DNA from: Peribacillus frigoritolerans
GTDB taxonomy: Bacteria; Bacillota; Bacilli; Bacillales; DSM-1321
Reading direction: 5' to 3'
Length of the DNA stretch: 64,000 nt
NCBI RefSeq assembly: GCF_040250305.1
Contig: NZ_CP158190.1
Location: 3,752,001 to 3,816,000 of the forward strand
The number at the start of each line of letters is the position of its first letter. The first letter of the stretch is position 1. Positions 4,803-32,615 of this stretch are shown piece by piece. Both the position numbers and the translations under genes were made by a program. The notes beneath the pieces were generated by a model that was not told the DNA's origin, did not search any database, and worked only from the letters and a program-made list of their open reading frames with translations.

Positions 4803-4825
4803 AAAAAAGAACCCCCTTTCATCTC

Positions 4826-4858
4826 AATGTATGTATTATTTTATAGATAGCTTGATGA
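4826..4858 (-). promoter_or_regulatory. Probable sigma-E promoter of yqfC
   Basis: On the minus strand the octamer CATACATT (plus 4826-4833) matches the sigma-E -10 consensus, 24 nt upstream of the yqfC start. The region 14-16 nt further upstream (TCAAGCTA) is only a partial match to a sigma-E -35. yqfC-yqfD are sigma-E-dependent in B. subtilis, which supports the call. The element lies at the edge of the island, so the -35 could include junction bases. Confidence 0.5.
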
Positions 4859-4909
4859 AAGTGTGATAACACAGCCTTTAGGTAATAATATTCTTCAAGG
4901 GGGAACATT

Positions 4910-6499
4910 ATGATAAAGCACGTAGGAATCTTATTGAGGATTAGTCGAGAGAGTACAGAAAACGCTGATACATTGCTTTCACATAGAACCATAGCCGAAC
5001 GGTATATGAAGGAACATGGCTATACCTATCAAATATATGAAGAAGTTAAATCAGGTGCTTCTAATATTGCTAACCGTACCGCCTTATTAGAAATGTTAGC
5101 AGATGTTGAAGCTGATAAATTAGATGCAGTGTTTGTCGTAAGTATTGACCGTATCAGTAGGGATACACTATATGCACAAATGGTAGCTAAAGTTATTGCT
5201 GATGCTGATATACCTGTTATAACGCCTGAAAAGACGTATGATTTAAATAGTGACGATAGGTTGTTATTTGATATTCAGAACGTTGTATCTAGCCAAGAAT
5301 TAAGGCTAATCACTAAACGTCAAAGGTCTGGTAAACGGGAACATATAGCTAGAGGTCAGTGGGCACAAGGTGTAGCCCCCTTTGGTTATAAAAGAAATGA
5401 AGATAATACTAGCCCTAACTATAAACACCTTGAAATTAACCCTACTGAAGCTGATGTAGTACGGATGATATTTACTTATGCAATTGCAGGAAATGGTATT
5501 CCTACGATTATAGATAAGTTAGCGGGCTACACTACAAGAAGTTACACAACCAGTAAGGGAAAATATCATACAGGCAAACCTTTTAGTATTAGTATGGTCA
5601 ATACGATTCTGAAGAATAGGGTTTATGTAGGTGAAGTTCAGATGCAAATTAAGGATAAACGGAAGAATGTTGTAGATGTTATTTCTACAGTTAATGCACA
5701 TGAAGCAATAATTGATACAGATACCTTCGAGAAGGCACAGGAAGCAGTAGCTGGACGTTTATCGGGTGGTGCTGAAGGTTTGGTTAAGCGTAACCGTAGT
5801 AGAGGTGAATGCCTATCTATATTGAAGGATTTAGTGTATTGCAATAGATGTGGTAGCAAGATGGGATTCAGGAAAGATTCTAAACAGCAGGATGTTGTAT
5901 ATCTAAAAGCTTGCCCATGTGGTAATAAAGGTGCAACAGAATCCCGACTATTAGAAGAGTTCTATAATCAGTTTGAATTCACAGAAAGATACTTTACGGA
6001 ACAATGGGAAAAGGCTTTAGCAACACCTATGGAAGATTCTAAGGAAGTACTACAAAAGCAATTGAAGCAACTACAGGAACAACAGGACAAACTAAACAGG
6101 AAACTAACTAAGATACGTTCCGCTTACCTTGATGAAGTTTTTACAAAAGAAGAATATTTAGCTGATAAAACGGCTACTGAAGAAGAACTGATGTTGCTGA
6201 AGAGGTCTACAAGCGATTTAGAAAGGCAATTGGTTAACCTAGATACTAAAGATGTTGCCGAAGGCTATGCAGAGAAGCTGAAGTTAATCCATAAGGTTAA
6301 GGAAATGGTTAAAGATAACCCTAGTTTAACGGATGAAGTAACAACACGTGCTAATACAATAGAAGCTAACCGAATGCTTAAAGTTCTGATTGATAAGATT
6401 TACTACCAGAAACATGATGAAAAGATTATAGGTTCTGATGCAATGGGTAATCCAGAAGTTGACTACAATATAATAGAAGTAACAATTGCACCTAAATAA
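4910..6499 (+). CDS. Large serine recombinase (site-specific integrase/excisionase)
   Basis: 529-residue serine integrase. The N-terminal resolvase domain carries LLRISRES with the presumed nucleophile Ser12, and FVVSIDRISRDTL supplies the conserved arginine region (about 75-88). The long E helix is followed by the recombinase domain (GQWAQGVAPFGYKR onward). A zinc ribbon starts at about residue 311 (LVYCNRCGSKMG ... ACPCGNKG), and a coiled coil runs roughly 370-450, typical of synapsis control in large serine integrases. RBS AAGGGGG lies 7 nt before the ATG. It sits beside the left junction and most likely moves the island. I see no recombination directionality factor that I can name. Confidence 0.93.
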   Translation: MIKHVGILLRISRESTENADTLLSHRTIAERYMKEHGYTYQIYEEVKSGASNIANRTALLEMLADVEADKLDAVFVVSIDRISRDTLYAQMVAKVIADADIPVITPEKTYDLNSDDRLLFDIQNVVSSQELRLITKRQRSGKREHIARGQWAQGVAPFGYKRNEDNTSPNYKHLEINPTEADVVRMIFTYAIAGNGIPTIIDKLAGYTTRSYTTSKGKYHTGKPFSISMVNTILKNRVYVGEVQMQIKDKRKNVVDVISTVNAHEAIIDTDTFEKAQEAVAGRLSGGAEGLVKRNRSRGECLSILKDLVYCNRCGSKMGFRKDSKQQDVVYLKACPCGNKGATESRLLEEFYNQFEFTERYFTEQWEKALATPMEDSKEVLQKQLKQLQEQQDKLNRKLTKIRSAYLDEVFTKEEYLADKTATEEELMLLKRSTSDLERQLVNLDTKDVAEGYAEKLKLIHKVKEMVKDNPSLTDEVTTRANTIEANRMLKVLIDKIYYQKHDEKIIGSDAMGNPEVDYNIIEVTIAPK

Positions 6500-6513
6500 A
6501 ATTAGGTGTTTTT
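6489..6513 (+). terminator. Terminator of the recombinase gene
   Basis: CACCTAA and TTAGGTG arms flank a 6-nt loop that contains the stop codon, followed by TTTTT. A short but canonical intrinsic terminator. Confidence 0.7.
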
Positions 6514-7345
6514 CTATGTTTACCGATTTGTAAAGCTAGGTGTAAAAAATCCTTACAATTAGATAAGTTTGTAAAATGAAAGAATTAACGGTAAGCGTTA
6601 TAGAAAGCCTGTTATCTCAACCTTTGTATGAAGTAGAGTAACAGAAATTGATTGATTTTAGTTGTCAATCTAAGCTACATTGTAATCATTATAATTAAGT
6701 ATACCGTTTTCCCCACCATAAATTACCCTTGACTTTTTACAGCAATTACCCCCACCTTTTTCTACAGCAATTACCCTACCCTTTTATACCACCCCTTTTC
6801 CCTACCATTATTAGTACACCTTTTCCACACCCTTTTTAGGCAATTTCCCCACAGAAATAGGCACAACTTTCCCCTACCATTTCCCCCACCTATTTATACC
6901 ACCCTTATTCCCACCCAAACACTACGCACTAAATTACCCCTAACATTTGCCCAACCTATTGCTACCACTACATTGTACGGCTATATGATTAGGAACAATA
7001 GGAACAGTTATATTATTAGTACCTACTACTATCGCCTTATACTAAATGATTAGTTTTAACATCATAGATATGTAATGATTTATAGATAGCTGTATCAATA
7101 ACCATTAACACTAATCATTACACTTAATGTAATATCCTAACACTTGTAATTAAATCATTAATGTGAATCAACCGTCACTGATGTTTAAATAATATCAATT
7201 AAAGTTGACCAGTAGGGGTGTTCTAAAATTTGGACGAATTCTGGTTTGGGTGTTAATCCTTATAATAAATATCAAACTAAACTGGCAGGTCAATTTTTTT
7301 CATCTTTAAAAATAAACTTGGCGATAACTTGTTCCAATTTATCAC
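6514..7345. other. Non-coding control region: C-rich, G-poor tract followed by AT-rich repeats
   Basis: No convincing gene. Bases 6709-6960 contain only about 11 G in roughly 250 nt, while C is abundant in ACCC/CACC/TACC blocks. TACAGCAATTACCC occurs twice, at 6738-6751 and 6763-6776. From about 6980 to 7170 the composition flips to AT-rich, with several copies of ATGATTA or its complement TAATCAT. TTGACC at 7204 and GGTCAA near 7290, followed by a T-run, form a loose inverted repeat just before the promoter of the next operon. The C-rich transcript is what a Rho loading site looks like; the complement is G-tract-rich. Confidence 0.6.
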
Positions 7346-7374
7346 GTTACAGAAAATACCTTATTTGTTATACT
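7346..7374 (+). promoter_or_regulatory. Probable sigma-A promoter of the membrane protein-KAP operon
   Basis: GTTACA (7346-7351), a 17-nt spacer, then TATACT (7369-7374) preceded by TG as an extended -10. It ends 35 nt before the TTG start at 7410 and lies inside the longest reading frame of that gene, which argues for the downstream start. Confidence 0.55.
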
Positions 7375-7409
7375 TTACAGTGATGACAAAATTATCAGGA
7401 GGTAAGGTA

Positions 7410-8246
7410 TTGAAAGGGATTAACGAATGGGTACAAAATAATAAAATAAAATCAGTCTTAATACTATTATTAACTTTTTATCTTTTACCGCTTTTAATCG
7501 TTCATATATTATATAAACTACCTACAATTTCCACGGTGTTTATAACAAAGTGGACAGCAGGTGAATTAATTGATTACTCTGTAACATTTATGGCATTTCT
7601 CGGAACTCTTGCATTAGGGGGTGTAGCTTACATTCAAAATAATAGACTTAATAAAATTAATAACGATTTAATTCAACATCAATATAAGCCAATTATTACT
7701 GTAAGCCCTTCTGTTGATGAAAATAATGAAAGAGAGAAATTAAGAACCTATTATAGGACAGTTGAAAGAGACAACACTGGTATTTTAATAAATCATGGAT
7801 GGTCAGAAAGCCAAACGTATTTCCCTTCTGCAAAATTAAGTTTTTTAAATATCGGTTTGGGACCTGCGGTAAATGTTCAATTATTTTGGTATCAACTTGA
7901 CAGTGTTGATGGAATCTCAAAATTAGATGAAATCTCAAAAAGAAATATCGATGATTTTTATGAAAAAGTTAAGTATTCTAATTTTACATATATTGATAAC
8001 GGTATCACTAAAAATGAACCTTGGGGGATTTTCACAGACTTTTCGTTAGGAGTAAACGAAGATGTAAATAGGCTTAATTTGTTATTATCATTTGAAAATA
8101 ATGCTTCTCCATTTCACAGTATCATAGAAATTAAATATGAAAATTTGTTGGGGATGAAATTTAAACAGCTTTTATATTTGGGATATAATGGAGAACCAAG
8201 CATGTTACCTATATCAAATGTATATGTTAATAATTCATCAGTTTAA
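7410..8246 (+). CDS. Two-helix membrane protein paired with a KAP NTPase (unknown function)
   Basis: I place the start at TTG 7410 because AGGAGGT ends 6 nt upstream and a promoter lies just before it; the frame is open back to an ATG at 7329 without a ribosome site. The 278-residue product has two membrane helices (about 15-35 and 56-74), both near the N-terminus. The soluble C-terminal domain of about 200 residues is probably beta-rich (LSFLNIGLGPAVNVQLFW, then IIEIKYENLLGMKFKQ). No catalytic motif is recognisable. It ends 22 nt before the KAP NTPase, so the two are one operon. A membrane effector or anchor controlled by the NTPase is a reasonable guess, not shown by sequence. Confidence 0.72.
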   Translation: MKGINEWVQNNKIKSVLILLLTFYLLPLLIVHILYKLPTISTVFITKWTAGELIDYSVTFMAFLGTLALGGVAYIQNNRLNKINNDLIQHQYKPIITVSPSVDENNEREKLRTYYRTVERDNTGILINHGWSESQTYFPSAKLSFLNIGLGPAVNVQLFWYQLDSVDGISKLDEISKRNIDDFYEKVKYSNFTYIDNGITKNEPWGIFTDFSLGVNEDVNRLNLLLSFENNASPFHSIIEIKYENLLGMKFKQLLYLGYNGEPSMLPISNVYVNNSSV

Positions 8247-8268
8247 GTTGGGATTGTGAGGTTACTTA

Positions 8269-9969
8269 ATGAAAGCAAATGAAATTGTTACCGTACTAAA
8301 TCAGTTTAAAGATTCCAGTTATCAAAAGGGGTTGATAGACGGTACTTGGGGAATTGGAAAGACTAAATATGTTGAAGATTTTAAAGATGCATATATAGAT
8401 GCTTGTTATGTATCACTGTTTGGAAAAAAAGATATTGAGAGTATAATTCAAGAAATATATTTTCAAATTGTTGATAGCGTACCAAAAGGGAAGTTAAAAA
8501 AACACTTTAGTGTGTGGAGAGAAAAACTTAATAATATCAACGTTCGTTTTTACGGCTTTTCTATCTCCGTTCCACTAATAGAAAACTTACATAAAACCTT
8601 GTACAAAGAATTAAATAAGAAAAACACATACATTATTATCTTAGATGATTTAGAAAGAAAGCATGAATCACTTAATATCAAAGAAGTATTAGGTTTAATT
8701 GATGGACTTGCTAAAATAGAAAAGATAAAAACTGTACTTATTGCTGCTACAGACCAACTAAAAGGGGAAGATGAAAGAACATTTAAAGATTATAAAGAGA
8801 AAGCTATCGATAAGTCATTTACAATAGATGAATACGCAGATGAAGCACCTGTAAAAATCCTGGGTGAACAGGTGTGGAATGTAATAGGTAAGTATTCTGA
8901 TGACTTTAAATTTAAAAATTTGAGGACATTTAAAAAAACTGACCTATTTATTAAAGAAGTAATTAAAGTTATTGGAGAAGATAAATTTACCGAAAAATTT
9001 ACTAAAGATGATGTATGCCGAATGTGTTTTGCTACTATTTTCTTTAAAGTTGAACATAAAAGTGAGATGAAATTATTAGATACTGAAGGAGATGCAAGTG
9101 ACTTCAAAAATACTTATTATAAAAGTAGCGATGCTGGAGTTATTGAGTATTTATGTAACCATATTTTAAAAAATTCTTTAGATAATACTCAAAGTAAAAC
9201 TGTATTTCATCATATTATAAAGTGGTATGACACAGGCACTTTCCCAAAAGAAACCTTATTTAATTTAATTTCTTCAATTAACAATTATGAGGAGAAACCA
9301 AAAAACTTCTATTCTTCAGAACAGGAGATTCTTAACGTAATTGACAATACAAAAGAGTACTTAAGAAATCTAAACGGAACTGAAAAAATAGATGAAATTG
9401 TAAGAAATATTTCTACCGCATTTGCATGGTGTGAGGTATTGTCCATTGATTTTGGATTAAGTGGAGATGAAATCATATCTTTGGCAAACAAAAATATTTC
9501 AAATAGTATCGACTTAGATACAGGTCTTTTTCATAATGAATTAGATTCTATAGGTGTAGAAAGCGGTGAAGCAAGAAATATTATCAATTCTTTAAATAAA
9601 GCATTAAAATTTGAGTATTATGAACAGTTGATAATACAAATCAAAAATAGTTATGTTGATGGTTCTTACAACGTTTCTTACTTAAGACAACTCAATGTTG
9701 TAATTAATTCAATTGTTGATGAAAAGTTTAGAGATAGCTTTATAAAAAATTTAAGTGACAATCAATTCTTTTTCCCTATACCTTCTGGGAGAATTTCCGA
9801 AGACCTTTGGACATGGTGTCACCAAATTAATAAACTTATAAAAGATTTTGACAGACGATGGGAATTAAAAAATTATTATGATGATTTTAAAAATTACATT
9901 AACGGTTTAGACGTAGTTCAAGATGATAAATTACTTCAACATAGGTTAAAAACTTTATTTAATAGATAA
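8269..9969 (+). CDS. KAP-family P-loop NTPase
   Basis: 566-residue predicted ATPase. Walker A is GTWGIGKT (residues 25-32), at the very N-terminus as in KAP NTPases. Walker B is YIIILDDLER (121-130), followed by a VLIAATDQ strand (about 156-163) and YKEKAIDKSFTID, resembling the KAP sensor region. The C-terminal 350 residues are helical and charged with no recognised domain. KAP proteins include the phage-exclusion protein PifA and often act with membrane helices. Here the helices are supplied by the preceding gene rather than inserted in the NTPase. The gene is followed immediately by a strong terminator. An antiphage role is inferred from family and location. Confidence 0.8.
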   Translation: MKANEIVTVLNQFKDSSYQKGLIDGTWGIGKTKYVEDFKDAYIDACYVSLFGKKDIESIIQEIYFQIVDSVPKGKLKKHFSVWREKLNNINVRFYGFSISVPLIENLHKTLYKELNKKNTYIIILDDLERKHESLNIKEVLGLIDGLAKIEKIKTVLIAATDQLKGEDERTFKDYKEKAIDKSFTIDEYADEAPVKILGEQVWNVIGKYSDDFKFKNLRTFKKTDLFIKEVIKVIGEDKFTEKFTKDDVCRMCFATIFFKVEHKSEMKLLDTEGDASDFKNTYYKSSDAGVIEYLCNHILKNSLDNTQSKTVFHHIIKWYDTGTFPKETLFNLISSINNYEEKPKNFYSSEQEILNVIDNTKEYLRNLNGTEKIDEIVRNISTAFAWCEVLSIDFGLSGDEIISLANKNISNSIDLDTGLFHNELDSIGVESGEARNIINSLNKALKFEYYEQLIIQIKNSYVDGSYNVSYLRQLNVVINSIVDEKFRDSFIKNLSDNQFFFPIPSGRISEDLWTWCHQINKLIKDFDRRWELKNYYDDFKNYINGLDVVQDDKLLQHRLKTLFNR

Positions 9970-9974
9970 CTAAC

Positions 9975-10001
9975 GAGGACATTACTAAAGTCCTCTTTTT
10001 T
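9975..10001 (+). terminator. Terminator of the KAP operon
   Basis: GAGGAC and GTCCTC arms with a 9-nt loop, then six T. Starts 6 nt after the KAP stop codon. Confidence 0.88.
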
Positions 10002-10040
10002 ATTTCCAAAAAGGCTAAGATTAGAGATTGATTAGAAGTT

Positions 10041-10075
10041 GGTTGTCCAGTTCTTGAGGATAACCTTCTTTTTTT
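10041..10075 (+). terminator. Second terminator-like hairpin in series
   Basis: GGTTGTCC pairs with GGATAACC (one G-U) around a 9-nt loop, followed by TTCTTTTTTT. No gene lies between it and the KAP terminator, so it may end a short RNA. Confidence 0.6.
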
Positions 10076-10291
10076 ATGCTGAGGTACGATTTTCATACCC
10101 GAATAAGACTTAATTAATAATACTTAATATAAAAAGACTTAATATATTAGAGATGAAAAGCTAAAGCTTTTAATTGATTATTGATTGATTATGAATCTAT
10201 AAAGGAATACCCGTTATAAGTGATAGATATATGAAATAGAAGAGAAAACGGTAAAGCCTTTAGAAAGAAAGAATAAGTAATAACTGCCCTG

Positions 10292-10319
10292 CCCTGCCAA
10301 TAACGGTGGGGATTTTTTA
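10292..10319 (+). terminator. Third terminator-like hairpin in series
   Basis: CCCTGCC pairs with GGTGGGG (two wobble pairs) around a 6-nt loop, followed by ATTTTTTA. About 215 nt of gene-free sequence precedes it. Confidence 0.6.
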
Positions 10320-10445
10320 TTTTTAAATTATTTTACGATTCAATGTCCCATAGCTTACGGTCACACTTGTTTAATTAGTATAGGGATTAAAAAGACCCTT
10401 AATAAATACTTAAATTTAATTACCAATAATTACATGCTGCTTAAT

Positions 10446-10497
10446 TGTCCCATCCCTGACAATCAGACTTTATTTATATAGTAAGAGAACAAATAAA
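10446..10497 (+). repeat. Duplicated leader/promoter block, copy 1
   Basis: TGTCCCAT at 10446-10453, then a 34-bp segment (10464-10497) identical to copy 2. It contains TTTATTTATATAGTAAGAG, plausibly a phage-type promoter or transcript start. The downstream sequence has a ribosome-site-like CGGAGA and a short TTG frame only. Confidence 0.8.
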
Positions 10498-11039
10498 TTA
10501 CAACTTAATATTACGGAGAACTTTGAAGCTGAAAGTTAACTCCTTTATCAAATAACTACAAGGGTACTAGTAAGCCCGATGCATAAAGTTTACTAGATGG
10601 GCAATTTGTCCATGTTGGGGATTTTAATATTTACCCTGTTGAGAATTAACTCACAAATAAATATTGGAGAAGGCTGTTGAAGAACAGTTAGTAATTGAGG
10701 AATTGACTATATTACTTTTACTTCGTGGATGTCAATTTACTAGTAGGATATTTGTCTCTTCTAACTTAAAGAATTCACCGTTTAGTAATACATATAGATG
10801 TTAACAAACGGTTGATTAATAAAAGAGATTAAGAGATTAAAACATTGGCTTCGCCAGTCTTTTGACCTTCTAAATATAACTATTAAATAGATATAGCCGT
10901 TACTAGATAAAACATTATACGATATGTCCCATTTTCCTAACTTTATGGGAGTTTGAACAGGACATGTATTTAAAAGATATTGAAGTATTAGAGGTAAAAC
11001 ATATTTTTTAAAAAATAATTTAAAAAAGTTTTAGATTGT

Positions 11040-11090
11040 TGTCCCAAACCTACAAACAGACTTTATTTATATAGTAAGAGAACAAATAAA
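11040..11090 (+). repeat. Duplicated leader/promoter block, copy 2
   Basis: TGTCCCA at 11040-11046, then the same 34-bp segment (11057-11090), in the same order and orientation as copy 1. It ends 30 nt before the ATG at 11121, so it is probably that gene's promoter and leader. Confidence 0.8.
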
Positions 11091-11120
11091 ATAAAACATT
11101 AAACTAAGGAGTTGAAAATA

Positions 11121-11459
11121 ATGAGAGTCGTATCCTATGGAAAGGTAAAGATTGAATTGGAATTACATGAATCATTCCCGTTATATGCTGAAAAAGTGTT
11201 AAAAGAAAATACTGCCCCTGATAATCCCCGTTCTCCTAATATGCATCCCTCTTCATACAATATCCTCTTTGAAAAAGATATGCCTTGGTTTGACAAAGCA
11301 GCGATGAACAATGTTGGATGCATGAGTAGTTACAATAAACTTATGGTTCAAATGTCTAACCGTTTACACAATGCAAAGCATATTGAAGAAATTGATAAAA
11401 ATGTTAGGTCATATGATTTATTCAAGTATGAAACAGGTTTACTTAGATACGGTAGCTAG
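11121..11459 (+). CDS. Hypothetical island protein, 112 aa
   Basis: Not recognised. I take ATG 11121 as the start because AAGGAG lies 9 nt upstream; an in-frame TTG at 11112 abuts that site. The product begins MRVVSYGKVKIELELHESF. It is soluble, mixed-charge, has no membrane helix, and contains several Met/Asn-rich stretches (residues 35-85). It follows leader copy 2 and precedes the hairpin-rich region, so it shares its promoter with whatever RNA that region makes. No function assigned. Confidence 0.65.
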   Translation: MRVVSYGKVKIELELHESFPLYAEKVLKENTAPDNPRSPNMHPSSYNILFEKDMPWFDKAAMNNVGCMSSYNKLMVQMSNRLHNAKHIEEIDKNVRSYDLFKYETGLLRYGS

Positions 11460-11465
11460 GTAACC

Positions 11466-12135
11466 CCGTCCTGAAGATGACGGTATAAAAGCTTCTAGCA
11501 TTAGCAAGTGCTTAGTCCTAAGTCATTTTTATACCCTCCCTTTCTCTTTCTAGAAATCATTACAGGTTTACTCCTATTTTCCTGTAGTGGTTTCAATGAA
11601 GGTAGAAATACTTTCCTAAAATATCCGGCAATAAGCCGACAAGAGAGAGGAAAAGAGGTACACCTCCTTTAATTTAGTAGTTGTTTATTTTGCATTCTAA
11701 GGCAGAAACATCTTCAACATGTAAGGCATCCATTAATTTATTCCTAAACGGGACTAGTCACCCCAAACTATTTTAAAAGTACCTAATTGAGGGGAATCAT
11801 TGAATTCTTCTAAAGCGAACAATTAGGTACTTTCTAAAGTAGTTTTGAATACGAGATGGATATCCTCGTTAAAAGGTCTTTATGGTTATAGAGAATGGCG
11901 TGAAACATTTTCTTATGTGTTAGCTGTAATTGATTTCTGTTTGATACAAAGAACCCTCCAATTGTTTTGAAGAGGTTAAAAGCTTTATACAACAACCTTG
12001 ATTAATTGATTGTTGTGGGGACATTCAATTTAAAAATGTACTAGACGGAAACCATAGACACGTAAGTCTAGTACTTAACCTTACCCGATAGATTTAATTC
12101 TATTGGCTATACTGCACCTTCTTCGGAGGGTGTAG
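11466..12135 (+). ncRNA. Candidate large structured RNA (many hairpins, no reading frame)
   Basis: Stems on the + strand in order: CCGTC/GACGG (11466/11479); GGTATAAAA/TTTTATACC (11482/11527); CATTACAGG/CCTGTAGTG with one G-U (11558/11581); CGGC/GCCG (11626/11635); a long imperfect stem of about 25 bp, 11765-11789 with 11820-11845, whose inner 14 bp are perfect; ACGAG/CTCGT (11851/11865); ACAACAA/TTGTTGT (11989/12010); GTACTAGAC/GTCTAGTAC (12038/12066); CCGATAGA/TCTATTGG (12085/12099); and a 10-bp stem closed by a C(TTCG)G tetraloop (12112-12135). The last four are consecutive and end 47 nt before the next gene. A single RNA, several small RNAs or a 5-prime leader are all possible. Confidence 0.45.
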
Positions 12136-12182
12136 AAATATTTAATAGAATATAAACAATATAGAAAAGAGGATAAATTAAA

Positions 12183-12878
12183 ATGACAAAAGCAAATGAA
12201 ATGATTAAATTACAACAGCAGGTGCAACAATTATCTAAACAACTTCAGGCGAACAATGCATATAAACATTCTGCAATTCATAAACGGATTGAAGCTGAAG
12301 CGGAACGGTGGTTCGATAGCAAGGTAGCCGAGAAGGAAACGGCACAAGCACATAAACAATTCTTACAAGAAAACATTACAAAAATGATGTTAGGTAATCC
12401 ACAGCACCGAGAAGTAAGTATACTAAAAGTTGTTAATGGTGTACCTATGAGAGTTGCCACTGATAATATGGCTAATGTGGTAAAGGTTGAACCTATCAAA
12501 AGTTTTGGTGAATTGGATTACGGGGAACGTTCCCAACTAATGACAGAAAATAAGAAGTTATATACACGCTTAAAACACGAGGTATATAAACCTGAAATGA
12601 ATGACTTTCATGTTGATGTAATGGTCAGTGATGGTATTAAGTTTGATGAATGGTCTATTCTAGCTGATACACCACAGAAGCCTAGCCTAGAGGGTTTAAG
12701 CACGGAAGATTCCTCTAAGGTGCTAAGTGAGTATAGTAAAGCTACAGAAGCCCATACAGCCCGTTTAACAACATATCAAGCAACTAAGACATCCTATGAA
12801 ACGGGTGTTATGAATAACGATTTGAGAGAAGCAGAAAATAAGATTGAAACTATCACTAAAGAATTAAACGGGGAATAA
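12183..12878 (+). CDS. Coiled-coil island protein, 231 aa
   Basis: Not recognised. The start ATG has AAGAGG 11 nt upstream. Residues 1-30 are Gln/Leu-rich and heptad-like (MIKLQQQVQQLSKQLQANN); the last 60 residues are again helical and charged. The protein is hydrophilic, rich in Glu, Lys and Thr, with no membrane segment or Cys cluster. Phage scaffold or tail-associated proteins can look like this, but nothing specific supports that. It heads a short operon with the 48-aa membrane peptide 5 nt downstream. Confidence 0.7.
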   Translation: MTKANEMIKLQQQVQQLSKQLQANNAYKHSAIHKRIEAEAERWFDSKVAEKETAQAHKQFLQENITKMMLGNPQHREVSILKVVNGVPMRVATDNMANVVKVEPIKSFGELDYGERSQLMTENKKLYTRLKHEVYKPEMNDFHVDVMVSDGIKFDEWSILADTPQKPSLEGLSTEDSSKVLSEYSKATEAHTARLTTYQATKTSYETGVMNNDLREAENKIETITKELNGE

Positions 12879-12883
12879 TTGAA

Positions 12884-13030
12884 ATGGATAAACTAGAAAT
12901 AGTTGTTGCAGTAGTTTATCTATTAGCTATTTACAATATCGTTAAAACAATACTTTTAACAGTTAAACTAAAGAAGACAGAAGAGAAGATGGAAAAACGC
13001 CTAGAAGAGTTTTATGCACAACTTGGGTAG
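12884..13030 (+). CDS. Small single-helix membrane protein, 48 aa
   Basis: Begins MDKLEIVVAVVYLLAIYN, giving one membrane helix at about residues 5-25, and ends with a highly charged helix rich in Lys/Glu. It starts 5 nt after the previous stop, suggesting translational coupling; the upstream GGGGAA is a modest ribosome site. Its TAG stop falls inside the following terminator. The topology resembles small phage membrane proteins, but no family is recognised. Confidence 0.65.
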   Translation: MDKLEIVVAVVYLLAIYNIVKTILLTVKLKKTEEKMEKRLEEFYAQLG

Positions 13031-13056
13031 CCTTAATTGGTTGCCCTCTTTTTTTT
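13025..13056 (+). terminator. Terminator of the 12183-13030 operon
   Basis: GGGTAGCC and GGTTGCCC pair with wobble pairs around a 6-nt loop, then eight T. The stop codon of the upstream peptide lies in the left arm. Confidence 0.8.
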
Positions 13057-13086
13057 ATTTATAAACAGAAAAGGAATGAATAAATC

Positions 13087-13599
13087 ATGAAGGTAGAACA
13101 CAACAGGGTAGATTTAAAACTATCTGAAATAGAAATGAAGTTTTGTCATGCTTATGTAGCAAATATGAGAAACACATCAGAAACGGCTAGACAGATTAAT
13201 ATTAGCAGACCTACTTTAAATAAATGGTTGAAGAAACCGCATATTCAAGAATATTTAAATGTGTTAGGTGAAGCAGGTATTGCAGAATCTATTCTAACCT
13301 TTGATGAAGCAATGCAGATTCTAACGGGTATAGCTAGGGGAACTATTACAGAAGAAGTAATAAACTTTAAATCAGGTAAGATTGAAAAGACAATCCCCAA
13401 TACTATTTCTAAGAAGCAAGCCGTTGAACTGTATCTAAAAGCTACTGGACAGCTTGTACAGCGTATTGATATTACATCAGACTATGATAGACCTAAACCT
13501 AATGTAAATGACCTTACAACAATAGATATGGCTACTAAGAAGATTGCACCTCCTATTGATGCAGAGTTTGAAGAAATTGATACGGGTGATTTAAATTGA
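13087..13599 (+). CDS. Phage small-terminase-like helix-turn-helix protein
   Basis: 170 residues. The N-terminal segment reads LSEIEMKFCHAYVANMRNTS, then a helix-turn-helix (ETARQINISRPTLNKWLKK), then PHIQEYLNVLGE: the layout of small terminase subunits and phBC6A51-type phage HTH proteins. The C-terminal half includes KKQAVELYLKATGQL, the segment that in TerS proteins precedes the acidic tail, here IDAEFEEIDTG. TerS recognises packaging sites on phage DNA. No large terminase is present, so it might redirect a helper phage's packaging, as in phage satellites, or be a DNA-binding regulator. RBS AAAAGGAA lies 10 nt upstream. Confidence 0.72.
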   Translation: MKVEHNRVDLKLSEIEMKFCHAYVANMRNTSETARQINISRPTLNKWLKKPHIQEYLNVLGEAGIAESILTFDEAMQILTGIARGTITEEVINFKSGKIEKTIPNTISKKQAVELYLKATGQLVQRIDITSDYDRPKPNVNDLTTIDMATKKIAPPIDAEFEEIDTGDLN

Positions 13600-14063
13600 A
13601 CAGTGAAGGATATTTCATAAGCAAGTATAAAGATGATGAAGGTAATCTGATTCATGAAATTGACTTACATCATTACAACCCTACCGAAGATGAAGAAATA
13701 GATGATAATATGGTTATTGGTGATTTTAACGGTATCAGTATAACTTCTATAGCTGAATGGTATTTCAATACTAACAAGCTTCAAGGGAAGGTTAAACTAG
13801 GTTCTGATTCAAGGATAAGCTTACCTACTGTTCCATCATGGAAAGAACTTTCTAAACGGTATCCAGAAGGAAAGCTACTTAGAATTAAAGGTGAATACTT
13901 TGTTGTAACTAGCATTGATGTTGAAATAGTAACTGAAGCCTTTAAAGATAATACTTGGCAAGATACAGACCTATGGACAGCAACCGTTAATGTTAAGCCA
14001 TACGGTGTAGATGTTGCAGAAGATTGGATTAGTGTTGACTTAGATATTAACTGGAATGAATAA
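13596..14063 (+). CDS. Hypothetical acidic island protein, 155 aa
   Basis: The TTG start overlaps the preceding stop as TTGA, a typical coupling arrangement. The product is acidic, mostly beta-predicted, with many aromatic residues (ISVDLDINWNE at the C-terminus) and no membrane helix or known motif. It could be a partner of the terminase-like protein because of the overlap. It is followed directly by a terminator. Function unknown. Confidence 0.68.
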   Translation: MNSEGYFISKYKDDEGNLIHEIDLHHYNPTEDEEIDDNMVIGDFNGISITSIAEWYFNTNKLQGKVKLGSDSRISLPTVPSWKELSKRYPEGKLLRIKGEYFVVTSIDVEIVTEAFKDNTWQDTDLWTATVNVKPYGVDVAEDWISVDLDINWNE

Positions 14064-14064
14064 C

Positions 14065-14100
14065 AAAACCCCTTTCCCTTAATTGGATTAGGGGTTTTTT
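14065..14100 (+). terminator. Terminator after the terminase-like operon
   Basis: AAAACCCCT and AGGGGTTTT arms followed by a T-run, starting 2 nt after the stop codon. Confidence 0.85.
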
Positions 14101-14169
14101 TGTCTAAAATACTTACCAGTAATAACCTAATGTAATCTAATATAATCTGTTGTATTCTAAGTCTTGTAA

Positions 14170-14340
14170 GAGAGACACCTTATACAAGGTTCTTTATTAG
14201 CTTCAAGAAGTAATGCTAATAAGCTTGTGCATAGTGCTAAAACAGAAGCTGAACGTGAAATGTTTATAGAGTATAGAAATCATGTTATAGAAACAATGAA
14301 CTTAGTAAAGCTTTATAATAAGCTTGATAAAGTTATTTAA
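14170..14340 (+). pseudogene. Open frame without a start: probable gene remnant
   Basis: After TAA at 14167 the frame stays open for 56 codons to TAA 14338-14340. It encodes a plausible helical C-terminus ending YRNHVIETMNLVKLYNKLD. No ATG, GTG or TTG with a ribosome site opens the full segment; the first ATG is internal at about 14258. CTTGTA (14163) and TACAAG (14183) form an inverted pair at its front. I read it as the 3-prime end of a gene that lost its beginning; chance openness is possible. Confidence 0.35.
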
Positions 14341-14395
14341 AGGCATTGGGGAGAAATCCCCTCCTTACATATTCATTCTAAAGGAGGTTGCAAAA

Positions 14396-14569
14396 ATGGC
14401 TAAATCAAGTGTTTCATTGAAGGTTGCTGAAGAGGTTAAGGGAATGTTAGAGGAACTTAGGGTATTCTACAGTAAAGAAGTATCCGTTGATTTAAACACT
14501 AGTCAAACGGCTGAACGTATTATTAGATTAGCCTACTTAGATATGAAAGAAAAAAAGGCTGAGGATTAA
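14396..14569 (+). CDS. Small ribbon-helix-helix-like protein, 57 aa
   Basis: Starts MAKSSVSLKVAEEVKGML after an excellent AAAGGAGGT site 8 nt upstream. The pattern of a short beta segment (SSVSLKV) followed by two helices (EEVKGMLEELRVFY, then TSQTAERIIRLAYLDM) is that of RHH/CopG-type DNA-binding proteins. It may regulate island genes. It is the last gene of the island before the right junction, and an imperfect terminator hairpin (about 14550-14592) overlaps its end. Confidence 0.65.
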   Translation: MAKSSVSLKVAEEVKGMLEELRVFYSKEVSVDLNTSQTAERIIRLAYLDMKEKKAED

Positions 14570-14592
14570 AACTTCCCCAACCTTTCTTTTTG
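14550..14592 (+). terminator. Terminator at the right end of the island
   Basis: AAAGGCTGAGGA and TCCCCAACCTTT pair with two mismatches, followed by CTTTTT. It would stop island transcription before it reaches the convergent yqfB. Confidence 0.55.
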
Positions 14593-14724
14593 TTTATTTA
14601 TAACCACCTCTAAATAATTTCAAATGTATGAAATGAAAGAGGGTTCTAGCACAAAATTATAAGGGAATGAAAGTCTATTTTTTCAGGCTTTTAATGACGG
14701 GCTTAAAAAAGCCCAGGCTCCGAA

Positions 14725-15219
14725 TCACCTTCTGGATCTGTGAAGACTTCTCTTCGCCCTTGGCGGTCCCAGCACTTCTGACATGATGATGCCATCAATC
14801 AGCTGTTTTTTGCCAAAAGACGGTCCTTTGCGATAGACCGGACTGTTATTATCAGAAATCGTTGATGTAAGTTGATCCGCTTTCGCTTTTTGATATAAAC
14901 GCTCTTGATCGTACCTCTGCTGAAGCCGTCTAAGCTCCGTAATCCTTTTGTTCGCTTCGTTCTTCGTCTCATCGATCACTTCAACAGCCTGTGCTGCCTG
15001 GTGTTCGACTTTCCTTACGGGAGGAGGTGCATGCTTTTGCTGCTGATTCCCTTGCGGCATTTCACCTTGAAGCTCCCGCATGACCTCCTGCCATTTCTTT
15101 TTCGGAGGGGTGTTAGGATCTTGAGTCTGCTTTTTCTTTCCTAACATGGACGTTAAAACACCGATCAAGACAATGATAAGGAATGGGTTCTCGAGAAAGA
15201 AATCAATAAAATCTCCCAT
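14725..15219 (-). CDS. yqfB: YqfB-like protein, last gene of the floA operon
   Basis: 164 residues. The N-terminal membrane anchor (residues 4-26, FIDFFLENPFLIIVLIGVL) is followed by a Lys/Gln-rich, coiled-coil cytoplasmic tail. Named by position: it follows floA with 22 nt spacing, as yqfB does in B. subtilis; the sequence itself is poorly diagnostic. The start ATG has GGAAGG upstream. A GGGCTT/AAGCCC hairpin at 14700-14715 lies past its stop. The island lies just downstream, so the operon transcribes toward the element. Confidence 0.65.
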   Translation of the reverse strand: MGDFIDFFLENPFLIIVLIGVLTSMLGKKKQTQDPNTPPKKKWQEVMRELQGEMPQGNQQQKHAPPPVRKVEHQAAQAVEVIDETKNEANKRITELRRLQQRYDQERLYQKAKADQLTSTISDNNSPVYRKGPSFGKKQLIDGIIMSEVLGPPRAKRSLHRSRR

Positions 15220-29538: not shown

Positions 29539-30690
29539 TCAGTCGGAATCAATAACGCCCAAAAATGATTGGAACACTTCATTTCCAAGCAGTTTGCCCT
29601 GCTCAGTCAAGCGCACGAACCCGCCTTCCACCTTAAGCAGACCCTTTGCCGATCCTTCTTCGAGCGGTTTCCTGAAAATCTCCGTCATTTCAACAAAAAA
29701 TTTATTCTTGAAGATTTCCAATGATACACCTTCCGTTTTCCGGAGCCCCAAAAACATCTCCTCTTCCATCCGTTCATGAAGCGGTACTGGGTGTTCTTCC
29801 AATACTGGCAGCTCGTTCTCCAGCAATGGCGTAATATATTTCTTCACAGGACCATGATTGGCCACCCTTTTTCCTCCAGTATAGCCATGTGCACCGGCAC
29901 CAATCCCATAATACTCCACATTATCCCAATATGTCAGGTTGTGCCTGCTTTCAAACCCAGCTCGGGCAAAATTACTGATTTCATATTGATGCAGACCATG
30001 CTTCTCCATCTCTTCCATTAGCCTCTCATACATCGAAGCCTCGAGCTCCTGCGGCGGCAGGTTCAATTTACCCCTTCTCATCTGGTTATAAAAAACCGTC
30101 TTCGGCTCAACGATCAATGAGTAGCTGGAATAGTGCGGCAATTGAAGGGCAATCGCTTTATCCAGCGTATCCTTGAAATCTTCCATCGTTTGGCCTGGCA
30201 ATCCATATATCAAGTCGATGCTGATATTCGTAAAGCCAACCTCTTGAGCCAAATGAATCGTTTCATAAACTTCTATAGCCCGGTGAGTCCGGCCAATTCG
30301 TTTTAACAATTCATCATTGAAGCTTTGCACTCCAAAGCTAAGTCTATTGACTCCTGAATCATAAAGTATCTCGAGTTTTTTCCTCGAAAGATCCCCTGGA
30401 TTGGCTTCGAATGTATATTCAGCCTTTTTAGGATCAAAGGGCAGGGTTTCATTGATCGCTTCACATAAGAATGCAAGCTGCTTTTCATCCAGAGAGGTCG
30501 GTGTCCCTCCACCGACGAAAACCGTATCCAAACCGGCAGTCGGGTATTTGGAAAGCTGCATCTCCATTTCCCTTTTCATCATCTGTAAATATTCGTCCAC
30601 CGGCTGTCCCTGCAAAAATACTTTATTGAAATCACAATAGTGACAAATATGTTCACAAAATGGTATATGGAGGTAGGCGCTTTTGATCAT
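29539..30690 (-). CDS. hemW: HemW-type radical SAM heme chaperone
   Basis: 383 residues. Radical-SAM cluster motif CEHICHYCDF (CxxxCxxC) near the N-terminus, GGGTPTSL next, and a C-terminal HemN-like domain. Older annotations call such proteins oxygen-independent coproporphyrinogen oxidase, but the short HemW class lacks the HemN N-terminal extension and acts as a heme chaperone. I choose ATG 30690 (MIKSAYLHIPF); GTG 30699 is too near the ribosome site. It lies between lepA and hrcA. Confidence 0.92.
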   Translation of the reverse strand: MIKSAYLHIPFCEHICHYCDFNKVFLQGQPVDEYLQMMKREMEMQLSKYPTAGLDTVFVGGGTPTSLDEKQLAFLCEAINETLPFDPKKAEYTFEANPGDLSRKKLEILYDSGVNRLSFGVQSFNDELLKRIGRTHRAIEVYETIHLAQEVGFTNISIDLIYGLPGQTMEDFKDTLDKAIALQLPHYSSYSLIVEPKTVFYNQMRRGKLNLPPQELEASMYERLMEEMEKHGLHQYEISNFARAGFESRHNLTYWDNVEYYGIGAGAHGYTGGKRVANHGPVKKYITPLLENELPVLEEHPVPLHERMEEEMFLGLRKTEGVSLEIFKNKFFVEMTEIFRKPLEEGSAKGLLKVEGGFVRLTEQGKLLGNEVFQSFLGVIDSD

Positions 30691-30725
30691 TGTGTTCACA
30701 ACCTTTTAATCGAATGAGTCGATAG

Positions 30726-30759
30726 AAAAAGAGGCTAGATTTCCTCTACCCTCTTTTTT
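30726..30759 (-). terminator. Terminator after lepA
   Basis: Fourteen-base arms starting AAAAAGAGG with one mismatch, 5-nt loop, T-run on the minus strand. Confidence 0.85.
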
Positions 30760-30779
30760 CTATCTATCGTTTATTTTAT

Positions 30780-32615
30780 TTATTTCTTTGGTGTCGTATC
30801 ATCCATTTTCAAAACAGCCATGAAAGCTTCTTGCGGAACTTCAACGGAACCTACCTGTTTCATCCGCTTTTTACCTTCTTTCTGTTTTTCGAGCAACTTA
30901 CGTTTACGGGAAATATCGCCGCCGTAACATTTAGCCAATACGTTTTTGCGCATTGCACTAATTGAAGAACGGGCGATGATTTTTTGCCCGATTGCTGCTT
31001 GGATCGGCACTTCAAATTGTTGTCTTGGAATCAATTTCTTCAATTTTTCAACGATGACTTTACCGCGTTCATAAGCAAAGTCCTTATGAACGATGAAACT
31101 TAAAGCATCGACAGTTTCAGCATTCAGCAAGATATCCATTTTCACAAGCTTGGACGGTTTATAGCCGATCAGCTCATAATCGAATGAAGCATAGCCTCTT
31201 GTATTGGATTTCAATTGATCGAAGAAATCATACACGATTTCCGATAATGGTATTTCGTAATGAATACTTACACGGGTCTCATCGATATATGCCATATCAA
31301 TGAAGTTACCGCGTTTATTTTGACAGATTTCCATGATCGCCCCGACAAACTCCGTCGGTGCCATCATCGTTGCTTTGACATATGGCTCCTCGACCCGTTC
31401 GATTTTTTGAGCATCAGGCATATTAGACGGGTTATCCACTTTCAGGACCGTTCCGTCCGTTTGGACCACATCATAAATAACACTCGGTGCAGTGGTGATC
31501 AGATCGATTTTGAATTCACGTTCAATCCGTTCCTGGATAATTTCCATATGAAGGAGTCCAAGGAATCCGCAACGGAAACCGAAGCCCAATGCTTGCGATG
31601 ATTCCGCCTCGAACTGCAGCGCTGAATCGTTCAATTCCAATTTCTCCAACGCATCCCGTAAATCATTGAATTTCGATGCGTCAATTGGGTATAGACCGCA
31701 ATATACCATCGGATTCATCTTCCGGTAACCCGGCAATGGTTCTGTCGCACTATTCACGGCACTGGTAATCGTATCACCAACAGTCGTATCACCAACGTTT
31801 TTAATGGATGCCGTAAGGAAACCTACATCACCTACGTTCAGTTCATCCAACAGCTGGGTTTTAGGGTTGAAGACACCCAATTCGGTAACATCGAATTCCT
31901 TGCCAGTGGACATCATTTTGATTTTGTCGCCCACTTTAATGGAACCCTCAACAACACGGATATAGGCAACTACACCGCGGTACGCATCAAACAGTGAATC
32001 GAAAATAAGAGCCTTGAAAGGAGCATCTGGATCACCTTGTGGAGCTGGAACCAATTCAACGACCTGTTCCAGAATCTCCTCGATTCCGATTCCCGCTTTA
32101 GCCGAAGCCAAGACTGCATCGGAAGCATCCAACCCGATCACTTCCTCGATCTCTCCACGCACCCGTTCCGGATCTGCACTCGGCAAATCGATTTTATTGA
32201 TGACCGGAATGATTTCCAGGTTGTTGTCCAATGCTAAATAAACGTTTGCAAGCGTTTGGGCCTCAATACCCTGTGCCGCATCGACAACAAGGACAGCTCC
32301 TTCACAAGCTGCAAGGCTTCGTGACACTTCATACGTAAAATCGACATGTCCCGGTGTATCAATAAGATGGAAGATATATTCTTCTCCATCTTTCGCATTA
32401 TATTTCAATTGAATCGCATTCAATTTAATCGTAATTCCACGCTCACGCTCTAAATCCATGGAATCCAACAACTGACTCTTCATTTCACGCTGAGTCATGG
32501 CGTTCGTTTTTTCAATGATCCGATCCGCCAATGTAGATTTACCATGATCAATATGAGCGATGATGGAAAAGTTACGAATTTTTGATTGTCTTTTTAATTT
32601 TTCTTCTCTATTCAT
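30780..32615 (-). CDS. lepA: Elongation factor 4 (LepA)
   Basis: 611-residue ribosome-associated GTPase. G1 [10 protein letters not shown]3 DTPGHVDF and G4 NKIDLP are present, then EF-G-like domains II, III and V and the LepA-specific C-terminal domain ending in [17 protein letters not shown]. The upstream frame adds 35 codons, but [19 protein letters not shown] after GGGAGTGA is the conserved start. Confidence 0.97.

Follow-up and report, generated by a model that had tools for sequence, protein, structure and literature searches.

The gene-free stretch at 11460-12182 on the plus strand (called RNA2 for simplicity) of the window, i.e. the complete 64-kb piece of a 5.6-Mb single-contig genome that was analysed (probably Peribacillus, judging by the names of homologues), most probably gives rise to a large RNA of elaborate fold, and one end of this RNA recurs, together with its shape, before a related gene in a kindred island of another bacterial family. 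We consider it very probable that RNA2 is a real conserved RNA. Its hairpins were confirmed and belong for the most part to the plus strand, and our best guess is that it forms a cis-coupled leader or RNA-protein module.

The island harbouring RNA2

RNA2 lies in an island of low GC content that spans about 10 kb (roughly 4803-14724; GC 0.28-0.37 per kilobase from 6001 to 15000), whose ends are approximate because no direct repeat of more than 8 nt common to both was found. The flanking host genes are presumably yqfC/yqfD/phoH on one side and yqfB/yqfA on the other. With a recombinase and a terminase-small-subunit-like gene, the island is phage-satellite-like; scans of eight island ORFs, five of them without a Pfam match, recognised no capsid or tail gene. 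The following features (G141 denotes the genome from the other family) are referred to below.

4910-6499, plus strand: large serine recombinase, 40% identical to the recombinase of the G141 island
8269-9969: KAP-type NTPase (PADLOC PDC-S49, 1.6e-20)
10459-10518, plus strand: 60-nt direct repeat, copy 1, taken as the putative promoter of RNA1
10511-11050, plus strand: RNA1, a separate structured RNA (end approximate)
11052-11111, plus strand: 60-nt direct repeat, copy 2, preceding the 112-aa gene and taken as the putative promoter of ORF112-RNA2-ORF231
11121-11459, plus strand: 112-aa gene (ORF112) preceding RNA2; a search found a single homologue other than itself
11460-12182, plus strand: RNA2, hairpin-rich gene-free stretch of about 700 nt between ORF112 and ORF231
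12183-12878, plus strand: ORF231, its start codon 47 nt after hairpin H4
13087-13599, plus strand: terminase-small-subunit-like gene
13596-14063, plus strand: 155-aa gene with a distant relative (24%) in G141

The KAP-family NTPase falls into a candidate defence family (PDC-S49) and the 305-aa ORF upstream of it looks membrane-bound; together they are possibly defence cargo of the island. Between 9970 and 11111 no ORF of at least 60 aa was present. ORF231 itself had no Pfam match and a weak structure prediction (pLDDT 65, pTM 0.37, coiled ends); its relatives P0002-P0007 are 75-79% identical. In P. simplex the 112-aa and 231-aa genes carry the locus tags P4646_25945 and P4646_25935, a numbering with space for a single further tag.

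Folding and conservation of RNA2

On the plus strand, 11460-12180 folded at -199.5 kcal/mol versus -153.4 kcal/mol (sd 7.1) for shuffled sequences (z -6.5, none of 100 shuffles as stable), and on the minus strand it reached z -2.0, with 2 of 100 shuffles as stable; an earlier plus-strand fold against 20 shuffles had given z -4.9. Among the 97 tiles completed of 176, each compared with 12 shuffles, 11537-12257 on the plus strand was the most extreme (z -6.2). Two other tiles of the window approached RNA2, 30283-31003 on the minus strand (z -5.8) and 13700-14420 on the plus strand (z -5.5), again with 12 shuffles only. Pair probabilities above 0.9 were obtained for twelve RNA2 helices of 4 bp or more. 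The preliminary description had spoken of a hairpin-dense stretch, and the folding is indeed beyond chance but not evenly dense: the excess is confined to three blocks (z -6.2 for 11472-11716, -4.3 for 11746-11860 and -4.8 for 12004-12138), and 200-nt windows starting at 11600, 11800 and 11900 folded at chance level (z +0.4, +1.1 and -0.1). The three stems that it had named individually, i.e. the long stem of the middle domain and those of H2 and H4, were all recovered among the parts of RNA2:

11472-11716, plus strand: 5' domain, a predicted multibranch closed by UGAAGAUG/CAUCUUCA, purely folding-based
11553-11566/11581-11594, plus strand: predicted 14-bp stem, among others in the 5' domain
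11746-11860, plus strand: predicted middle domain with a long 23-bp stem, 11767-11789/11820-11843
12004-12030, plus strand: hairpin H1, not kept in G141 (9 of 10 pairs gapped)
12038-12074, plus strand: hairpin H2, 9-bp stem 12038-12046/12066-12074 with a 19-nt loop
12079-12086, plus strand: CCUUACCC, the same in G141; its final two bases open H3
12085-12106, plus strand: hairpin H3, 8/8 pairs kept in G141 by the model-fitted and 5/8 by the sequence-only alignment
12112-12135, plus strand: hairpin H4, 10 bp (12112-12121/12126-12135) with a C(UUCG)G tetraloop

The longest stop-free run in RNA2 is 55 codons (shuffle mean 62), a length attained by 192 of 300 shuffles; none of its seven small ORFs had a Pfam match and no homologue of the 54-aa one was found. 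The stretch in the window thus carries no coding signal, in line with the initial reading of it as lacking a reading frame. A simple scan of the plus strand from 11460 to 12182 found neither a sigma-70-type promoter nor a terminator-like site, and no plus-strand terminator-like site was found between RNA2 and ORF231.

At the DNA level, two overlapping genome sets, 199 relatives and 397 members of the order, returned only pieces of 30-49 nt; plasmids held no DNA homologue, and phages, at E up to 5, gave only short pieces of E 0.2 or more. As a measure of noise, the AT-rich RNA1 query produced scattered short matches down to E 1e-4 per genome. At 11688-11736, 33-49 nt resemble the antisense strand of cysS in the genomes G136 (91%, E 1.5e-5, below this noise level) and G127 (82%, E 4e-4), and the piece extends into the closing strand of the 5' domain; it was judged a coincidence, the best non-self match of 11670-11760 in its own genome having only E 0.44.

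A covariance model (R2) was built from 12004-12138 alone, with this one sequence entered twice, and used with stricter filters, as were all genome searches with covariance models including that of the RNA1 core. Across 299 genomes, four matched at E of at most 0.1, the genome of origin among them. G141 matched at 40.4 bits and E 3e-6, which applies to one genome of the 299 and therefore amounts to about 1e-3 over the whole search. The matches in G031 (22.5 bits) and in G023 (27.6 bits, directly preceding an ORF that by eye resembles a sensor kinase) were dropped. The G141 match directly precedes a 213-aa gene whose product shares 40% identity with ORF231 across 207 residues; this gene is followed by a terminase-like gene (27%; 23.4 bits, below the Pfam cut-off of 26.1) and by the relative of the 155-aa gene. 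Because R2 held no protein information, this gene context constitutes independent support. The distance from H4 to the start codon is 47 nt in both genomes. By eye, the G141 island appears to interrupt a transporter gene; other defence-like cargo, a type II methyltransferase and a restriction enzyme (PADLOC), lies at 5882-7456 of its contig L075, and Pfam scans covered part of the ORFs of this contig and of the G107 contig L079 discussed below.

The corresponding stretch of G141 (L075 9745-10212, 468 nt) folds with z -4.6 in the sense and -1.6 in the antisense direction. Its upstream part contains a 91-aa ORF (9920-10195, minus strand) and could be coding, since no more than 12 of 300 shuffles attained its stop-free run of 96 codons; the conserved hairpins of the 3' domain lie downstream of and outside this ORF.

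Covariation was evaluated between two sequences, those of the window and of G141, in the 3' domain. Of 65 cells in the model-fitted alignment, 98.5% were paired, with 11 two-sided changes, which none of 500 shuffles equalled, and slid controls gave 34-45% paired and 0-2 two-sided changes. For H2-H4, G141 keeps 26 of 27 pairs, 10 of them with both bases changed; in H4 all 10 pairs are kept, 4 of them changed on both sides. Because an alignment fitted to the structure leans toward it, the count was repeated on a sequence-only MAFFT alignment, in which 23 of the 27 pairs were kept (H4 10/10, H2 8/9, H3 5/8) and 8 showed two-sided changes, compared to 10-15 and 1-4 in slid controls. Some of the conserved pairs are G-U. 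Identical in both sequences are CCUUACCC, GGCU, CUUCUUCGGAGG and C(UUCG)G, and the H2 loops are similar by eye (GGAnACC, AGAnACG); in the MAFFT alignment 29 of 47 unpaired and 31 of 54 paired columns are identical. By these comparative counts, the 3' domain (H2, CCUUACCC, H3, H4) has a covarying counterpart in a second island before a related gene. Compensatory changes, for which the listed stems were to be checked, were encountered in the last three, H2-H4, and the 5' and middle domains stand on folding alone; together with a folding excess mainly on one strand, these changes support the original proposal that a phage-like element carries a large structured RNA.

When the 397 genomes of the order were searched with an ORF231-family profile, three matched, namely the window's own, G141 and G107 (E 4.4e-7; 40% identity to ORF231 over 50 residues). 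The G107 island starts with a tyrosine integrase, an OLD-like nuclease and a resolvase, and continues with about 1.3 kb lacking an ORF of at least 75 aa. The ORF231-family gene comes next, then a RepA_N-like gene that scores below the Pfam cut-off and a terminase small subunit (60.4 bits). Its OLD-like nuclease (Pfam; L079 4763-6664) represents other defence-like cargo. The segment 8300-9085 folds with z -9.7 on the plus and -4.7 on the minus strand (20 shuffles); 7728-8300 of L079, upstream of the part adjoining the ORF231-family gene, folds with z -7.3 on the plus strand and contains repeated TATCA/TGATA palindromes. Because neither blastn nor R2 detects RNA2 in this stretch, G107 supports the layout and not sequence homology. 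A strongly folding stretch ahead of the ORF231-family gene is present in all three elements found, and all three islands carry a recombinase and a terminase-small-subunit-like gene. A search of viral and genome contigs for ORF231, resting on few short peptide patterns, gave no match, and tblastn of ORF231 and the G141 protein against phages and plasmids gave none. Viral pattern matches (L078, L080-L089) were taken as chance: that in L078 falls inside an ORF, and L080-L089 showed no R2 match at E 1 and no match to the ORF231-family proteins (two proteins) at E 0.01.

RNA1 and the repeated upstream element

The two copies of the 60-nt repeat are 87% identical and share an exact 25-mer, none being expected in 100 shuffles. 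In position they resemble promoters; in sequence, as judged by eye, they differ from the pBS32 SigN consensus. A promoter role is suggested because of the layout of that plasmid. Relatives of RNA1 were found in pBS32 of B. subtilis NCIB 3610, in Geobacillus phage GR1 and in IMG/VR contigs (L064, L066, L067, L069 and the pBS32-like L007/L008). Of 70 predicted pairs, 20 showed two-sided changes in an alignment of seven sequences, in which L008 hardly differs from pBS32 and L066 is close to L069. From this alignment, RNA1 appears to be a second large structured RNA family with covarying stems. RNA1 had no Rfam match at the gathering score, and Rfam searches of L005, L039, L064, L066, L067 and L069 returned tRNAs only.

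Table 2 of PMC6751061 reports a 158.4-fold induction of the pBS32 SigN promoter zpbP by Rend-seq; its authors count zpbP among the genes, with function unknown, rather than among RNAs. A gene table consulted for pBS32, known to be incomplete, shows no gene at this place. In pBS32 the zpbP promoter ends 15 nt ahead of the conserved core, so that the RNA1 counterpart there has a mapped start. With the SigN promoter predicted before the next gene, zpbQ (PMC6751061), the promoter-RNA-promoter-gene order of pBS32 would, by analogy, be the same as that of the window island.

Within the window, a model of the conserved 5' core of RNA1 (R1) matches 10511-10605 only (E up to 1); no copy was present in RNA2 or in the G141 and G107 stretches examined, and the other 198 of 199 relatives gave no match under stricter filters. 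Seven genome contigs (L057-L063) and two viral ones (L065, L068) were rejected as RNA1 candidates, the rest of the core being missing. In an open library, no paper joining pBS32, prophage and noncoding RNA was found.

Possible roles of RNA2 and relation to known systems

The best explanation overall, to which we give somewhat less than even weight, is that RNA2 is a cis-coupled module of the ORF231 unit; provided that RNA2 is a real conserved RNA, the case for cis coupling is about evenly balanced. ORF112, RNA2, ORF231 and the terminase gene would be transcribed as one unit from the putative promoter in the repeat at 11052. The conserved 3' domain would be a leader or a platform for binding, by way of which ORF231 or a phage or satellite factor may control how much ORF231 and packaging protein is made, whereas the bulky domains, 5' and middle, would vary between elements. 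Cis coupling is favoured because the spacing is equal in both genomes, no plus-strand terminator-like site intervenes and the 3' domain is the shared part. Several observations count against it: 468-786 nt is large for a leader, the covariation comes from two sequences with the 5' and middle domains lacking a homologue, and in G107 neither shared sequence nor an R2 match was detected. The 91-aa ORF of G141 and the unpaired columns, which are hardly more alike than the paired ones, also count against it, concern mainly the 5' part and leave our assessment unchanged.

RNA2 could instead be a trans-acting large RNA cut from the operon transcript during induction of the element, abundant and perhaps oligomeric like GOLLD and ROOL. 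This we regard as possible, if rather doubtful: it is favoured because RNA2 is large and RNA1 lies next door, the pBS32 counterpart of which starts at the strongly induced SigN promoter (PMC6751061), and the many helices and mobile-element setting fit it as well, whereas the missing sigma-70-type promoter and terminator-like site of its own, the equally spaced coupling to ORF231 in the window and G141 and the lack of an Rfam match at the gathering score argue against it. In a further reading that we hold to be a long shot, RNA2 and the ORF231 protein would form a satellite-encoded ribonucleoprotein or RNA cage acting with the terminase small subunit in capsid assembly or DNA packaging; if true, it would be a satellite counterpart of packaging RNAs.

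That the stretch acts as DNA, its inverted repeats marking an origin or a site for packaging, is improbable. A terminase-small-subunit-like gene is nearby, and in G107 the palindromic repeats are followed downstream by the RepA_N-like gene, but each of the three elements shows the greater folding excess on its sense strand, and the conserved G-U pairs form no DNA palindromes. Chance folding of functionless, AT-rich degenerate sequence or decayed genes could account for the scarcity of DNA homologues, the two other strongly folding tiles and the G141 ORF, and is made very improbable by the covarying homologue with its related downstream gene.

The preliminary description had pointed to GOLLD, ROOL, OLE or HEARO, and membership of these families is not supported: the Rfam covariance search of the whole window yielded no match at the gathering score, 9900-12300 at E up to 5 gave just two hits, SpF19_sRNA and mir-245 (E 0.8 and 3.8), both short of the gathering score, and the 64 kb contain no tRNA or tmRNA gene. 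GOLLD and ROOL are described in PMC12286853 as large elaborate RNAs of phages and prophages of unknown function, often near tRNA islands. RNA2 shares with them size and elaborate folding, and differs in standing, with neither Rfam match nor tRNA in the window, directly before a conserved gene. Its setting, with an integrase and a terminase small subunit and no virion gene recognised, is satellite-like. The functions of large phage-borne RNAs are unknown and their families few; RNA2 would tie one to a defined gene in satellite-like islands.

OLE RNA is tied to partner-protein genes. It is similar to RNA2 in length (about 600 nt) and occurrence in Bacillota, whereas RNA2 lacks an Rfam match and resides in a mobile island, and ORF231 has no Pfam match. 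Gram-positive phage satellites of the PICI type resemble the island in size (about 10 kb), recombinase, terminase small subunit and defence-like cargo; to our knowledge, a large RNA and ORF231 are not among their parts. No paper joining any three of phage satellite, noncoding RNA, terminase small subunit and conserved structure was found in an open library. The zpbP transcript of pBS32 (RNA1 family) is unlike RNA2 in that R1 misses RNA2 and that a repeat copy stands directly before RNA1 and none directly before RNA2. It is alike in being a large structured RNA of a phage-like Bacillus element whose counterpart adjoins RNA2, and because its promoter in B. subtilis NCIB 3610 is mapped and inducible (PMC6751061), RNA1 and RNA2 should be genetically testable.
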